From a virus: a stretch of 21,881 bases of DNA. Shown here in pieces: positions 1-20,413 of this stretch (its first letter is position 1; every line of letters starts with the position of its first letter). The translations under genes were made by a program, and so were the position numbers. The notes below the pieces were generated by a model, which did not search any database, was not told the DNA's origin, and saw nothing but the letters and a program-made list of their open reading frames with translations. The DNA is taken from the IMG/VR virus record IMGVR_UViG_3300032323_001577, positions 1 to 21,881 of that record, one strand, 5' to 3'.

Positions 1-318
1 CCCGCAACCGCCCACCTGGGGGACGTGAACGACCCCAAGAATTCTGAACTCCGGGGACTGCTCATGCCCCTATCCCTCTGGGCGATGCATCGACAAATCG
101 CCGTTGTGCTCGTCACCCACGTCAACAAACCCCAGGCTGGCAAGGTCGAGGCGATGGCCCGCGTAGTCGGATCCGTCGCCTGGGTCAACGCAGTCCGGGC
201 CGCCGTCATGTTCGCCCGCGACCCGAACGACAAGACGCGGCGGGGCGGGGCGAGGCATGGCTTGGCGAGGCGGGGCGCGGCACGGCACGGCAGGCGTGGC
301 GTGGCGAGGCGTGGCTAG
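1..318 (+). CDS. RepA-like AAA_25 ATPase/helicase, 5' partial, C-terminus replaced by repeat array
   Basis: The frame is open from base 1, so the gene starts outside the window. The first ~80 visible residues match the second half of the RepA/AAA_25 (DnaB/KaiC-like) ATPase core: a segment just after Walker B (ATAHLGDVNDPKNSELRGLL), a beta strand ending in VVLVTHVNK, and VVGSVAWVNAVRAAVMFARDP. Known members act as hexameric replicative helicases or helicase-like ATPases. In them this region continues into a further strand that packs on the core. Here the frame instead runs from position 239 into GGCNN pentamers, giving an Arg/Gly/Ala tail, and stops at 316-318. No later frame in or after the array recovers the missing C-terminus. 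The gene is therefore either a truncated product with a low-complexity tail or a relic. The family call is good; functionality is doubtful. Confidence 0.7.
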   Translation, partial: PATAHLGDVNDPKNSELRGLLMPLSLWAMHRQIAVVLVTHVNKPQAGKVEAMARVVGSVAWVNAVRAAVMFARDPNDKTRRGGARHGLARRGAARHGRRGVARRG

Positions 319-665
319 GCACGACGAGGCGTGGCAGGCACGGCGGGACAGGGCACGGCATGGCCCGGCGGGGCGTGGCAAGGCAGGCACGGCTAGGTCT
401 GGCGAGGCGTGGCATGGCGCGGCAAGGCAGGCAAGGCGTGGCTAGGCGAGGCGGGGCGAGGCGAGGCGTGGCAGGCGAGACGAGGCTAGGCACGACGCGG
501 TCGGGCGAGGCAAGGCAAGGCAGGCAAGGCAAGGCATGGTCAGGCATGGCGGGGTCCGGCATGGCGAGGCAGGCATGGCGAGGTACGGCAGGGCGCGACA
601 AGGCGTGGCAATGCAGGCACGGAATGGCATGGCGTGGTATGGCGAGACGGGGCGACGCCCCGGCA
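239..665 (+). repeat. GGCNN pentamer array with 44/49-nt higher-order period
   Basis: The + strand can be divided completely into pentamers of form GGCNN (mostly GGC, then purine, then any base), interrupted by GGCA tetramers. Reading by hand, the blocks ending in a tetramer are 239-292 (54 nt), 293-336 (44), 337-385 (49), 386-429 (44), 430-473 (44), 474-522 (49), 523-571 (49), 572-615 (44, ending TGCA) and 616-665 (about 50, ending CGCCCC then GGCA). About 77 pentamers are present; 13 deviate from GGC. A period of 5 is not a coding period, and the open frames on both strands are repetitive consequences of it. The spacing of GG pairs by three bases also allows two-layer G-quadruplexes in the + strand or its RNA. 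Function is unknown to me. Confidence 0.93.
649..661 (+). other. small GC hairpin at the array's right edge
   Basis: GGGGC, loop GAC, GCCCC forms a 5-bp stem where the array ends. It introduces the only run of C residues on the + strand here. It sits 23 nt before the next start codon and has no T tract, so it is not a canonical terminator. It could be an array boundary or chance. Confidence 0.4.
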
Positions 666-684: not shown

Positions 685-1068
685 ATGGTCAATGAACTCA
701 TACAAGAGCTGCGCTCATACCCAGCGCACTACGTGGCGGCCCACAAGGCTGCCGACGCACTGGATAAGGCGGAGAAGAATCGTAGCCACATGCACTACTA
801 CGCATGTCGTCTTGAGGACGAGCTTGTGAAGGCTCAACTGGAGATCGAACGCTTGCGCGAACACATCGCGGAACAGCAGCTCGACATCGTGACGCTGGGG
901 CAGGAGGTCGGGAGGCTGCGAGAGGTGCTGACACCTTTTGCCAAGACTGCTGATGCTTTGGACATAGAGGGGTGGGGTGAGGGCAGCGTTGAAGGCTCAC
1001 TTGCGGAGATTACGGCGGATCACTGCCGCAAAGCCCGCGCCGCCCTTGGAGAGGAGAAGAAGGGATGA
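685..1068 (+). CDS. Ea22-like coiled-coil phage protein
   Basis: A 127-aa protein of unknown function. The start is ATG 685, preceded by GGGAG at 673-677; an upstream in-frame ATG at 634 lies in the repeat array and is rejected. Residues ~35-85 are heptad-rich (ELVKAQLEIERLREHIAEQQ), predicting a coiled coil. The C-terminal part, LREVLTPFAKTADALDIEGW followed by an acidic/Gly stretch and an Arg/Ala-rich helix, is a pattern common to small early proteins of many phages (Ea22-like). Its stop overlaps the next start by 4 nt (ATGA), so the two are translationally coupled and probably related. No catalytic motif is visible. Confidence 0.8.
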   Translation: MVNELIQELRSYPAHYVAAHKAADALDKAEKNRSHMHYYACRLEDELVKAQLEIERLREHIAEQQLDIVTLGQEVGRLREVLTPFAKTADALDIEGWGEGSVEGSLAEITADHCRKARAALGEEKKG

Positions 1069-8760: not shown

Positions 8761-11133
8761 TCAGATGTGCTTGTTGGCAACTTCAAGCGCCTTGGCGACG
8801 GTGTCGTCGTGCTCGTTAAGGAGCTTCTCGGTGCTGGATGTTACATGATTTTTCGCCGTCTTGGCGAGTTCGCGAAGGTTCACCGCGCCGCCTGTCGCTC
8901 GGGCGGGGCGCTGCTGCTCTCGCTCCATATTGCGAACATGCTGGTCGTAAGCCGTCGCCAGTGTGGTGTTCATGCGATTGAACACGCGCCGGGCGACTGC
9001 GTTTTCCTCGACCAGTCGAGCCAACTGAGCCACCTGACTGGGCTCGTTTGAGAGCACCATAGGCATCATGGCGTTGGCGACACGGCGATCCGCCGCCGCG
9101 TACATGCCTTTTCCAGCAGCTCCGATGCCTGCGGCGATCAGTGCCTTTGTGATTGTCTCCGGCGGAAGGGCCGCCTGCATCTGGATGATGTTGGGGAGGT
9201 TGTCCACCGCCGCAGCGGTCAGTCCAGCGGTAACACCAACCGTCCCGGCGGTGGGGCCACCAGTAGCAGGGCGCATTTGCGGGAGGCGGCGAAGAACGTC
9301 CTCCGCTATCACAGATCCTGCGATCTGGTAATACCGGTCATCGCCAAGAACAGTGCGCATGTCGCGCTGGAAATTTCTATCGTTGCGGAACTTATTGGCT
9401 AGGGGGCCAATGTTTCCACTCATAGCCCTCTGCGAGATGGCGTGAGCCACACCAACGCGCAGGGCCTCCTGATTTTCAGGAGGCATTGACTGAAACTCGC
9501 GCTTCACATCCCCGCGCTTAAACGGGTTCTGCTGCGCCGAGAAAAGAGACTGGGCGAAGTTGAAGCCGGCCTCTGGCGCGCTTTCCCCCTGAAACGTCCT
9601 GCGGCTCACGCCTAGAGCCGTCTCGTACTCCGGAACGACACGATAGATCCTCTGTCGAAGCTCGTTGCGGATCTTTAAATGTTCGCTTGCAAGATCATTG
9701 AGGCCCTTGCGCTTAGCCTCTTCAATCATATCCCCGAATTTTTGATCAACCTTGTGCCAATAGCTCAAATTGCCATCGATAACTTGCGCAGGGCGTCCGG
9801 AAGAGCCCTGTTGCATCCGCAACCCTTGCGGCGTTTGAACAATCTTGCTCTCAACGGCTGGGACGGCAGAAATCTCCTGAAACGGCTTGATGTTGAAGCT
9901 GGTCAGTCCTTCAGCGGAAACATTCGCCTCTTTCATTGCCTCCTGCATGGAGCGCGTGCGCATCAGGTCGCGCAAGATGTCGCTCGGAATGTTATCCGCA
10001 ACCGGATTGGCGCGAGCGAGGCCGAACACGATGTCTCGGGTGATATTGCCCTGTTCACGCTTAAATTGCGTAAACGCATCCGCATCCACAGGTCGGCCAA
10101 CCGCAGACGCGACAGTTTGATCAACCCTGTCGCCTGCTTGGCCAGCACGCTCCGCCATATCGGCATTGAACTGGGCGAGGCGCGTCTGGTTAAGAGACGA
10201 AGTCCCGGCCTTTTTCTGAATCAGGAGCATGGTCTCTGGACCCGCCATGTCTGTCAGAGTGACAGGGCGGCCCTCATTGATCGCCTGCCGAACCTGCTCC
10301 GGCGTCATGCGCAACTGGCCTTTGCTCTGGTCTCGCAAAAGAGCGTCAGCAATCTCGTCACGGGCGGTGGCCGCCGGCAAAAGCGTGTTGGCGGCCTTGG
10401 CCCCAGCGAACCCGCCGCCAAGAGCCGATACGAGCCGCCAGAAAGGCTCGTTCTCTTGCCCCTTCGTAATCTGCCCAGCGGTTTCTCCAGCCGCTCCGGC
10501 GGCTGCGCCAGTCAGCACACGGCCAGCCATAGTACGGACGCCTCCGGGAAGGCCCGTGACGCCGCCCATGACGGCCTCTTCCGCCACCTTGCCGTAGGGC
10601 GTCTCCGGCTCACGAGCCAGCAAAGGCAACTGCGTTCCGAACAGCTCCGGGCGAGCCTTCAGCTCTTCCCGTGTCCCTTTGAACGTCGGTTGGCCTGAGT
10701 AGGGGGACACGCTCCCAGCCCTCTGCTCAGGTGTCAGCTCAAGACCAAAGAGCGGAGCCTCGCGACGCTTCTGCGCCTCGGCAGGCGAAATAATATCCGC
10801 CTTTTCCATGCCGCTGTAGAAAAGATTTCGCCCCAGTGTGGGGAGATCGTAACCGACCGTGCGCTCAACACTGCCGGCTGCTCCGCGCATGAGGGAGGGA
10901 ACCGAGCGCCCGGCCTCGGCGAGCATGCTCATGCCTATATCGCCAAAAGTAGACTTTGTCTGTTCGAGCTTTTGCTCTGGCGTGGAGGGCGGAGCAGGTG
11001 GTTCAGGGTCCGTAAACTGAAGTGTCCCCTCAATGATACCCGTTGCCGGCTGCGACTGCTCTCGGCGTGGTGCAGCATCGATGAACTCAAGAGGCCCGCT
11101 GATGAGCTGCGCCATCTGCATTTTATCAGCCAC
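8761..11133 (-). CDS. putative internal virion (ejection) protein
   Basis: A 790-aa protein. The start is set at GTG 11133, which has AAGGAG 7 nt upstream and overlaps the previous stop by 8 nt; the frame is open further upstream without such a site. The N-terminus is Pro-rich. Ala/Gly-rich stretches (VLTGAAAGAAGETAG and a later VTAGLTAAAV) may be membrane-active. Most of the rest is helical with charged repeats. The C-terminus RPARATGGAVNLRELAKTAK, ending in DDTVAKALEVANKHI, recurs in large phage proteins of alphaproteobacteria. Size, helicity and position between a hydrolase-bearing virion protein and the fibre suggest a protein ejected with the DNA. No enzymatic motif was found. Confidence 0.7.
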   Translation of the reverse strand: MADKMQMAQLISGPLEFIDAAPRREQSQPATGIIEGTLQFTDPEPPAPPSTPEQKLEQTKSTFGDIGMSMLAEAGRSVPSLMRGAAGSVERTVGYDLPTLGRNLFYSGMEKADIISPAEAQKRREAPLFGLELTPEQRAGSVSPYSGQPTFKGTREELKARPELFGTQLPLLAREPETPYGKVAEEAVMGGVTGLPGGVRTMAGRVLTGAAAGAAGETAGQITKGQENEPFWRLVSALGGGFAGAKAANTLLPAATARDEIADALLRDQSKGQLRMTPEQVRQAINEGRPVTLTDMAGPETMLLIQKKAGTSSLNQTRLAQFNADMAERAGQAGDRVDQTVASAVGRPVDADAFTQFKREQGNITRDIVFGLARANPVADNIPSDILRDLMRTRSMQEAMKEANVSAEGLTSFNIKPFQEISAVPAVESKIVQTPQGLRMQQGSSGRPAQVIDGNLSYWHKVDQKFGDMIEEAKRKGLNDLASEHLKIRNELRQRIYRVVPEYETALGVSRRTFQGESAPEAGFNFAQSLFSAQQNPFKRGDVKREFQSMPPENQEALRVGVAHAISQRAMSGNIGPLANKFRNDRNFQRDMRTVLGDDRYYQIAGSVIAEDVLRRLPQMRPATGGPTAGTVGVTAGLTAAAVDNLPNIIQMQAALPPETITKALIAAGIGAAGKGMYAAADRRVANAMMPMVLSNEPSQVAQLARLVEENAVARRVFNRMNTTLATAYDQHVRNMEREQQRPARATGGAVNLRELAKTAKNHVTSSTEKLLNEHDDTVAKALEVANKHI

Positions 11134-19029: not shown

Positions 19030-19698
19030 TCATCCTCCCCATGCCAAGTGAGCCTCATTCGCGGGAAGGCGAGCGCCCTTGCTCAAGTTTTCGGTTGCTC
19101 TAAGCACTTGAAGATTCCACGGAACGTGAAGGCCACTGAACCCACCACCCTTTAGCGGATGGATGTGGTCCACATGATGCTTTACACCAGTTTGCGTGGT
19201 GAGGGCAGCCGCCACATCGTACATCTCTTGGATCTGAGCCTGCTCAATCGCTGATAGCCATGAGGGCGTCGCGCACATCTTTGCGCTCCTGCGTTTCGCA
19301 GACTTTGCCGTATATGCCGTCTTGTTCTTGGAGTAATTGCTTTTGCAGTATAGTCTGGTTTTGTCTCTGTTGATTTTTCCCCACGCGGAAACTCTTTCAA
19401 TTATTTCATCCCTCTTAAGAGCGTAATAGACCTTTCGTTCCTGCAAAGTTTTATCTTTGTTTGACCAATACCGCTCACGATCTCGAAGCAAAACATGCTC
19501 CCTGTTTTTTCTTTTGTACTCTTCTCTACGAGCCAAATCTTTTTCAGGGTTGTTTTTTGCCCAGATCATAGCCTTTTCGCTATCACATGGTTTACAATTG
19601 TAATGAAGGCCGTCTTTTCTTGATCGATTGCGCGAAAACTCGGCAGCAGACTTCTCTGCTTTGCATATGCGACATACTTTTGTTGCCACACCTGACAT
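19030..19698 (-). CDS. free-standing HNH endonuclease, AT-rich insertion
   Basis: A 222-aa protein. Residues 9-12 (CRIC) and a later NCKPC make the N-terminal zinc finger of phage HNH proteins. A long Lys/Arg/Asn-rich middle follows. The C-terminal core has HHVDHIHPLKGGG, then GLHVPWNLQVL and ENLSKG, with the conserved His-Asp-His. Such genes encode homing endonucleases that cut near their own insertion site. It sits between tail adaptor and nozzle genes, which are normally adjacent. It is strikingly AT-rich and Lys-rich compared with both, so it was probably acquired separately. The start ATG 19698 follows the adaptor stop directly (TAATATG) with little ribosome site. The frame is open further upstream but inside the adaptor gene. 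Confidence 0.87.
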   Translation of the reverse strand: MSGVATKVCRICKAEKSAAEFSRNRSRKDGLHYNCKPCDSEKAMIWAKNNPEKDLARREEYKRKNREHVLLRDRERYWSNKDKTLQERKVYYALKRDEIIERVSAWGKINRDKTRLYCKSNYSKNKTAYTAKSAKRRSAKMCATPSWLSAIEQAQIQEMYDVAAALTTQTGVKHHVDHIHPLKGGGFSGLHVPWNLQVLRATENLSKGARLPANEAHLAWGG

Positions 19699-19699
19699 A

Positions 19700-20413
19700 T
19701 TAGCGACTCGGAGTTGCAATAGGCGACGGGGATTGGGACGACCAAGCTGATGATTCGTAACGCTTCCTCGCCTCTTCGACGGCTGCACCCTTCAGCAGAC
19801 CCTGATACTGGCTCTCGTAAGTGATCGCCATCTGAGGATCATCGTTCGCGCGCCCAAAGTTACGCTGGTACGCTGAGATGTAGACCATCGACGCCATTAC
19901 GAAGAGATCGGGCAGATATTGACTGATAAACGTCGTCGGGGTGCTGACCGACAGCGACGCCGGCCTGAAGGTGCCGGTAATCTCGACGCGGTACGCCTGA
20001 TCCGGGAACGGGCCGAGCAAGAACACGTTATCGTTGAAGGCGCAGTAGTATTTGGGCAGTCCAGCAGCGCTCGGCGTCCCGTACACCGCATCAAGAAACT
20101 CCTTCGTCGTCGGTAGGAGCGCGTTTCTGGTGCCGGCGTCAGGATTCACTGTGCCAGCAGGAGAAATCACATTGATCTGGTCAGTGACGACGAATGTGCC
20201 CACGGGGACGGTGATCTGTCGGCTGCCAACGACGCAGGTCTGAGTGCTGTTCGTGGTGGAGGTGAACAGGAAGTCCAAGTCGCGGTACATCCGCAACTCG
20301 GCGTAATCAATCATCATGGGCAGGATGGTCAGAAAATTGGGATCTGACTCCTCGACGACCGCCATCGTCGCGATCTGCGACTTGTAAGTTGTGTAGGTTA
20401 AGCCTGTCGTCAT
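19700..20413 (-). CDS. tail adaptor protein (SU10 adaptor / tail tube A-like)
   Basis: A 237-aa protein. TYTTYKSQIATMAVVEESDP, then FLTILPMMIDYAELRMYRDL near the N-terminus, a beta insertion (GSRQITVPVGTFVVTD) and a helical C-terminal part (LPDLFVMASMVYISAYQRNF, then MAITYESQYQGLLKGA) match the phage adaptor family. These proteins form the ring between portal and nozzle, T7 gp11-like in role. ATG 20413 is preceded by GGCGGGATCACC, a weak ribosome site. A 93-nt gap upstream contains a strong stem-loop. The C-terminal Ser/Pro tail runs to the HNH gene. Confidence 0.85.
   Translation of the reverse strand: MTTGLTYTTYKSQIATMAVVEESDPNFLTILPMMIDYAELRMYRDLDFLFTSTTNSTQTCVVGSRQITVPVGTFVVTDQINVISPAGTVNPDAGTRNALLPTTKEFLDAVYGTPSAAGLPKYYCAFNDNVFLLGPFPDQAYRVEITGTFRPASLSVSTPTTFISQYLPDLFVMASMVYISAYQRNFGRANDDPQMAITYESQYQGLLKGAAVEEARKRYESSAWSSQSPSPIATPSR

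Follow-up and report, generated by a model that had tools for sequence, protein, structure and literature searches.

A punctuated GGCNN pentamer array in a viral genome fragment as a probable guide-RNA cassette of the VIPR type

An array of GGCNN pentamers lies close to the left end of a viral contig (IMG/VR record IMGVR_UViG_3300032323_001577; 'the window' hereafter denotes the whole analysed stretch of 21,881 nt) and raises the question of why a repeat with freely varying NN positions should have its register reset every few dozen nucleotides. Our analysis suggests that the array very probably encodes, between tetramer separators, VIPR guide RNAs (vrRNAs) with which the protein Vipr reads NNxNNxNN. 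VIPR (Viral Interference Programmable Repeat), a phage-encoded relative of CRISPR, was described in a preprint of April 2026 (PMC13142463; bioRxiv 2026.04.26.720920), and since its vrRNAs consist of alternating GGY and NN, the view of a previous, sequence-only reading, which knew of no described element with this layout, is not supported. The system comprises a RAMP protein and vrRNAs with 9–16 repeats each, the NN of which read double-stranded DNA with a 1-nt skip falling on codon wobble positions; it is used between competing phages, six kinds of vap accessory are listed for it, and RNA expression, the 1-nt-skip rule and repression were shown for phages other than the present one (PMC13142463). 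The class itself is thus already described, and what is new here is the evidence that the resets delimit guides.

Segmentation of positions 239–658 yields 77 pentamers and eight tetramers, in agreement with the roughly 77 GGCNN units and the 44/49-nt period noticed earlier. The pentamer triplets are GGC (62), GGT (6), GAC (6) and others (3). The tetramers had all been taken for GGCA, which is correct for seven of them (at 289, 333, 382, 426, 470, 519 and 568), whereas the eighth (at 612) is TGCA. They are spaced by 44, 49, 44, 44, 49, 49 and 44 nt, that is, by 9, 10, 9, 9, 10, 10 and 9 units, and the first block measures 54 nt if its GGCA is included. Not one of 200,000 random placements kept the units within a range of 1, and the coefficient of variation of the spacing is likewise smaller than for random placements (p<=5e-5). 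All seven GGC tetramers are GGCA, while base 4 of the pentamers varies (G 35, A 30, C 7, T 5). Exact (GGCNN)x6 occurs 14 times on the forward strand of the window and neither on the reverse strand nor in a backward control. The NN dinucleotides are hypervariable (14 kinds), and the segmentation bears out that their content differs from block to block. Between resets the blocks have 8–10 units (8 in five of the nine), and a period of 44 nt (70% matches) is also detected by TRF. The features are as follows, the limits of the putative guide blocks being drawn by the reset rule:

1–238, plus strand: C-terminal part of an AAA_25-like (RepA-type) ATPase gene (weak Pfam hit), cut off at the array
239–658, plus strand: probable VIPR-type GGCNN guide array; 77 pentamers in nine blocks with eight tetramers between them
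239–288, plus strand: putative guide block 1, NN = GG GG GA AT TT GA GG GC AC AC
289–292, plus strand: separator GGCA, reset 1 (this and the following separators from the segmentation)
293–332, plus strand: putative guide block 2, NN = GT GT GA GT TA AC GA GT; its leading 7 are common to block 9 of contig L140
333–336, plus strand: separator GGCA, reset 2
337–381, plus strand: putative guide block 3, NN = AC GG AG AC AT CC GG GT AA
382–385, plus strand: separator GGCA, reset 3
386–425, plus strand: putative guide block 4, NN = AC TA CT GA GT AT GC AA
426–429, plus strand: separator GGCA, reset 4
430–469, plus strand: putative guide block 5, NN = AA GT TA GA GG GA GA GT
470–473, plus strand: separator GGCA, reset 5
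474–518, plus strand: putative guide block 6, NN = GA GA TA AC GC CG GA AA AA
519–522, plus strand: separator GGCA, reset 6
523–567, plus strand: putative guide block 7, NN = AA AA AT CA AT GG CC AT GA; its leading 7 are common to L140 block 13
568–571, plus strand: separator GGCA, reset 7
572–611, plus strand: putative guide block 8, NN = AT GA AC AG GC AA GT AA
612–615, plus strand: separator TGCA, reset 8
616–655, plus strand: putative guide block 9 (last), almost the same as the final block of L140
648–662, plus strand: array-closing hairpin CGGGGC-GAC-GCCCCG; a hairpin stands at the equivalent site in array-less relatives
685–1068, plus strand: downstream ORF, function unknown; in relatives, this site is likewise followed by a homologue

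Rfam covariance models, including those for hammerhead and other ribozymes, gave no match in positions 1–1500 up to E=0.5.

Arrays of this kind are widespread. A scan of IMG/VR with the pattern (GGCNN)x9 matched at least 120 contigs; a BLAST search of the array against phage records returned nothing, probably owing to the low-complexity filter, and the literature on pentanucleotide repeats in phages yielded nothing relevant. Most of the arrays are flanked by genes of one and the same orientation, and their GGC is on the mRNA strand; many possess a reset of their own, be it GGCA, GGCT, GGCG, CGCA, GGAACNN (as in L094) or GGTTCNN (as in L082). In L114, for example, the resets are GGCT, spaced by 44 nt once and then by 49 nt six times. 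Of 26 arrays that have five or more resets, 14 are spaced more regularly than expected by chance (p<0.01; Fisher p=3e-32), and the mean spacing differs between arrays, from about 9 to about 18 units. Within arrays, the NN beside resets are more alike (0.23 and 0.155) than those elsewhere (0.081), and the separator is therefore a short conserved element. Some arrays contain visibly duplicated blocks. Some very long arrays, which exceed 100 pentamers, contain at most a few regular resets (L005, 6311–7021; L027; L102), so that punctuation is not universal.

These arrays are connected with VIPR through a neighbouring gene. A family of ~200-residue proteins is encoded at 86 of the 120 listed array loci within the fetched stretch and, counting two contigs that carry it outside this stretch, at 88 of the 120; in 84 of the 86 it is on the array strand, and the median distance between array and gene is 73 nt. 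The family corresponds to phrog_4652, of unknown function, and its profile matches PDB entry 36pp_D, 'SUSP1 Vipr protein', with E=2.3e-39. Its AlphaFold model (pLDDT 92.5) matches Csm3/Cas7 RAMP structures, Csm3 being the best. A second family, phrog_15946, which is a candidate vap, occurs at 26 listed array loci and always together with Vipr; its model has no match in the PDB. Vipr adjoins GGYNN arrays in Felix O1-type phages, in DSL-LC04, in Cyanophage Cy-LDV1, in cluster-F mycobacteriophages and in Gordonia phages. For 32 of the 120 listed array contigs (e.g., L007 with 105 kb, L062, L066 and L092) no recognisable Vipr is present in the DNA examined, and these may represent orphan arrays, arrays whose Vipr has diverged, or GGC runs that are of a different nature.

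Two further observations concern individual phages. In L165 (Quico), L136 (Donkeykong), L163, L164, L167, L139 and L166, Vipr stands next to punctuated GGYNN arrays, the content of which differs among close relatives, and these Viprs of cluster-F and Gordonia phages are annotated merely as hypothetical proteins. The lower-GC phages DSL-LC04 and Felixounavirus HY02 carry GGTNN-rich arrays (L137, 5690–5960; L138, 3360–3560 and 4740–4815), which lie on both sides of vipr, upstream as well as downstream, amid short sequences that are themselves repeated.

If NN pairs are read with a skip, they should look like codon positions 1 and 2. Indeed, when the window's own genes serve as the reference, a model of codon positions 1–2 describes the NN of the window better than an all-frame mixture does (+31 bits), with the next frame reaching +6; the same test yields +39 bits for L140, and the codon-position-1/2 frame is favoured in 36 of 53 pooled loci. 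The codon-like composition is support that is separate from any target search, with the formal reservation that a bias of other cause could have the same purine-first profile. For the window's own blocks, the searches found no target. Blocks 1, 3 and 6 have no exact skip-1 target in viral_contigs, nor does block 1 have one in genome_contigs. Block 7 matches exactly, with skip 1, in two low-GC contigs (L159, 414–439, and L160, 5239–5264, minus strand); the two matches are one and the same sequence and lie in codon frame (KKIHIGPID) within a 323-codon ORF, at a chance expectation of ~1. Scanning the blocks of the window and of L140 against the genomes of relatives revealed no excess, exact searches with two Donkeykong blocks revealed nothing beyond chance, and an all-against-all search in 1.2 Mb of unrelated contigs gave a signal not above that of shuffles.

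A target was found for one reset-bounded block when 24 blocks were compared with a few actinobacteriophage genomes. The block AA TT AT TT TT AT GC CC TC AT of Quico, which has GGCA at both ends, scores 19/20 against the tape-measure gene of Che8 (10431–10460, minus strand) when read with skip 1. In this match (i) the skipped base is the wobble base, (ii) there is no extension past either reset, (iii) the runner-up among 2.96 million positions scores 16, and (iv) shuffling the units of the block 1,500 times never gives a score above 17 in the same phage set. In the phages Wachhund, Squirty and Minnie this site recurs with variation at skip bases only, while the genome of Quico itself and that of Tweety score 14/20. 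As a rough estimate, the probability of such a target arising by chance over all tests is ~0.002.

The way in which arrays differ between relatives points in the same direction. L140, an independent contig encoding a Cas4-like protein 97% identical to that of the window, carries a homologous GGCNN/GGCA array, so that the window array as such is no product of an assembly error. Blocks 2, 3, 7 and 9 of the window recur there, whole or in part, among differing blocks, and others have been lost, gained or replaced. Likewise, the arrays of the cluster-F phages Donkeykong, Brocalys, Zizzle and Gorge differ by whole inter-GGCA blocks while neighbouring blocks are nearly identical. The expectation of the sequence-only reading that related phages would retain the spacing of the resets despite varying NN is thus borne out by L140, by the mycobacteriophages and by many unrelated phages. 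Because blocks are shared with L140, because cluster-F arrays differ by whole blocks, and because the Quico target is bounded by its resets, we consider it most likely that the resets delimit guides of 8–10 NN.

The array would accordingly be understood as follows. It would be transcribed with GGCNN in the RNA; Vipr, as a Csm3/Cas7-like RAMP protein, would hold one GGC per unit; and successive NN pairs would read double-stranded DNA as NNxNNxNN, with the skipped base normally at a codon wobble position. GGCA and TGCA, as short separators, would interrupt the pentamer register from one guide to the next, and GGCA may mark where guide RNAs end or get cut. The array would then be a compact multi-guide cassette, the guides of which come and go as whole blocks and are probably aimed at competing phages. 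The proposal of the sequence-only reading that a protein filament or RNA structure constrains the spacing fares well in one respect, since the linked protein is a RAMP, of a class that assembles on guide RNA, and less well in another, since NN, given its codon-like composition and the target identified for an array of this type, appears to be information rather than noise around a spacing device. Several findings speak against VIPR, namely the lack of a recognisable Vipr on 32 of the 120 listed contigs, a single target for the 24 blocks that were compared with a small set of actinobacteriophage genomes, own guides for which the search gave nothing beyond the chance-level match of block 7, and blocks of 8 NN that fall slightly under the reported 9–16 repeats.

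A possible further point against VIPR is that neither vipr nor vap is present in the 21.9-kb window, the record of which starts 238 nt before the array (family phrog_15946 being the only vap kind sought), or in 14 relatives, including two contigs of 55–57 kb that also lack the array; the distantly related phage DSL-LC04 does encode Vipr. Presumably, Vipr would come from a gene in the portion of the phage genome that the record lacks, or be provided in trans. Alternatively, the array could be a former VIPR array, now without Vipr and decaying. This is improbable, albeit worth keeping in mind: some GGC units have indeed drifted to GAC or GGA, and relatives without the array are common, but few units have drifted in this way, GGT falls within GGY, and the blocks of the L140 array have turned over.

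The surroundings of the array are those of recombination and replication genes, including a helicase and a Cas4-like gene that belongs to a phage exonuclease family; a host search by way of this exonuclease led to scattered metagenome bins only. In the array-less relative L141, an SSB-like gene lies directly upstream of the corresponding hairpin. The reading frame of the AAA_25-like gene extends over positions 1–318 of the window and stops at TAG (316–318), and its homologue in L162 runs ~140 residues past the point of truncation. Either the gene was truncated by a genuine insertion or there is a chimeric join at the left edge of the array, and it is the junction of 1–238 with the array alone that could be chimeric. 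Far from the array, an ORF with HNH-like motifs (19030–19788, minus strand; CRICKAEK...HVDHIHPLKGGG) sits in a low-GC (0.45–0.50) patch between virion genes and looks like an inserted homing endonuclease.

The neighbourhood of recombination and replication genes, together with a pentamer spacing with two free bases that resembles TRAP sites, would suit an RNA- or DNA-binding platform for some other ring- or filament-forming protein (like (G/U)AGNN for TRAP, or ssDNA for an annealing protein), with resets reflecting ring size and no guide function. We regard this as quite unlikely, since the linked protein is Vipr rather than TRAP or an annealing protein, the reset spacing is not constant among arrays, and NN holds codon-like information. 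Still less credible is a neutral pentanucleotide microsatellite grown by slippage, in which GGCA would go back to one-base deletions inherited within a longer, duplicated unit. The 44-nt period detected by TRF and the block duplications seen in some other arrays would fit such an origin, yet GGC is retained while NN is hypervariable and codon-like, and the idea is contradicted by the linkage of arrays to one protein family in unrelated phages and by the matching target of the Quico block; the earlier claim that simple slippage is insufficient is therefore upheld. That the array is coding, whether as a low-complexity extension at the end of the AAA gene or as a 154-residue minus-strand ORF (206–670), can be practically dismissed, since the long open frames on both strands follow from the GGCNN composition, the plus-strand frame ends ~27 residues inside the array, the tetramers shift the frame at each block, and arrays elsewhere are intergenic.

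VIPR was described only months ago, and most array architectures are unexplored. Resets that act as guide boundaries would provide a rule for reading the guides of many phages from sequence alone. Cultured mycobacteriophages and Gordonia phages are added here as carriers of arrays, and the predicted conflict between Quico and Che8 is testable in a standard laboratory host. Going further, one might speculate, with considerable doubt, that short separators which are out of register by one base (GGCA, GGCT, CGCA, or the longer GGAACNN and GGTTCNN) are a general VIPR punctuation, each ending one Vipr filament and one guide, that arrays evolve by whole guides much as CRISPR arrays do by spacers, and that some phages, perhaps including this one, carry vipr-less cassettes served by the Vipr of another element.

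Comparison with known systems places the array as follows. TRAP sites consist of a (G/U)AG trinucleotide followed by two free bases in ~11 repeats; TRAP reads the trinucleotide and ignores NN, whereas the triplet of the window array is GGY, and no TRAP gene is linked to arrays of this type. TIGR-Tas (PMC12045711) likewise features phage-encoded tandem guide arrays targeting DNA, but its protein is Tas, and the accessible part of its description contains no pentamer code. With the RAMP effectors of Class 1 CRISPR systems (Csm3/Cas7) there is common ground in a RAMP on a guide RNA, multiple guides per array and guide turnover; unlike CRISPR, the window array has no palindromic repeat, and its specificity is spread over NN pairs instead of residing in a contiguous spacer. 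Consistently, TRF and gene scans of the window revealed pentamers only, and no CRISPR direct repeats, contiguous spacers or cas effector genes. As to VIPR itself, the window fragment differs in having no vipr or vap, and its putative guides of 8–10 NN follow each other head to tail with a tetramer between them, whereas the vrRNAs of SUSP1 are about 100 nt long with a structured 3' tail (PMC13142463), the only comparable structure seen in the window array being its terminal hairpin at 648–662; the 'staggered arrays' of that preprint (S18, PMC13142463), as far as its accessible part describes them, may be the same layout. In the remaining traits the array closely resembles VIPR: it is intergenic and co-directional, it consists of alternating GGY/NN pentamers with hypervariable NN, arrays of its type are linked elsewhere to Vipr, and the separator-type array of Quico has a target with a 1-nt skip.
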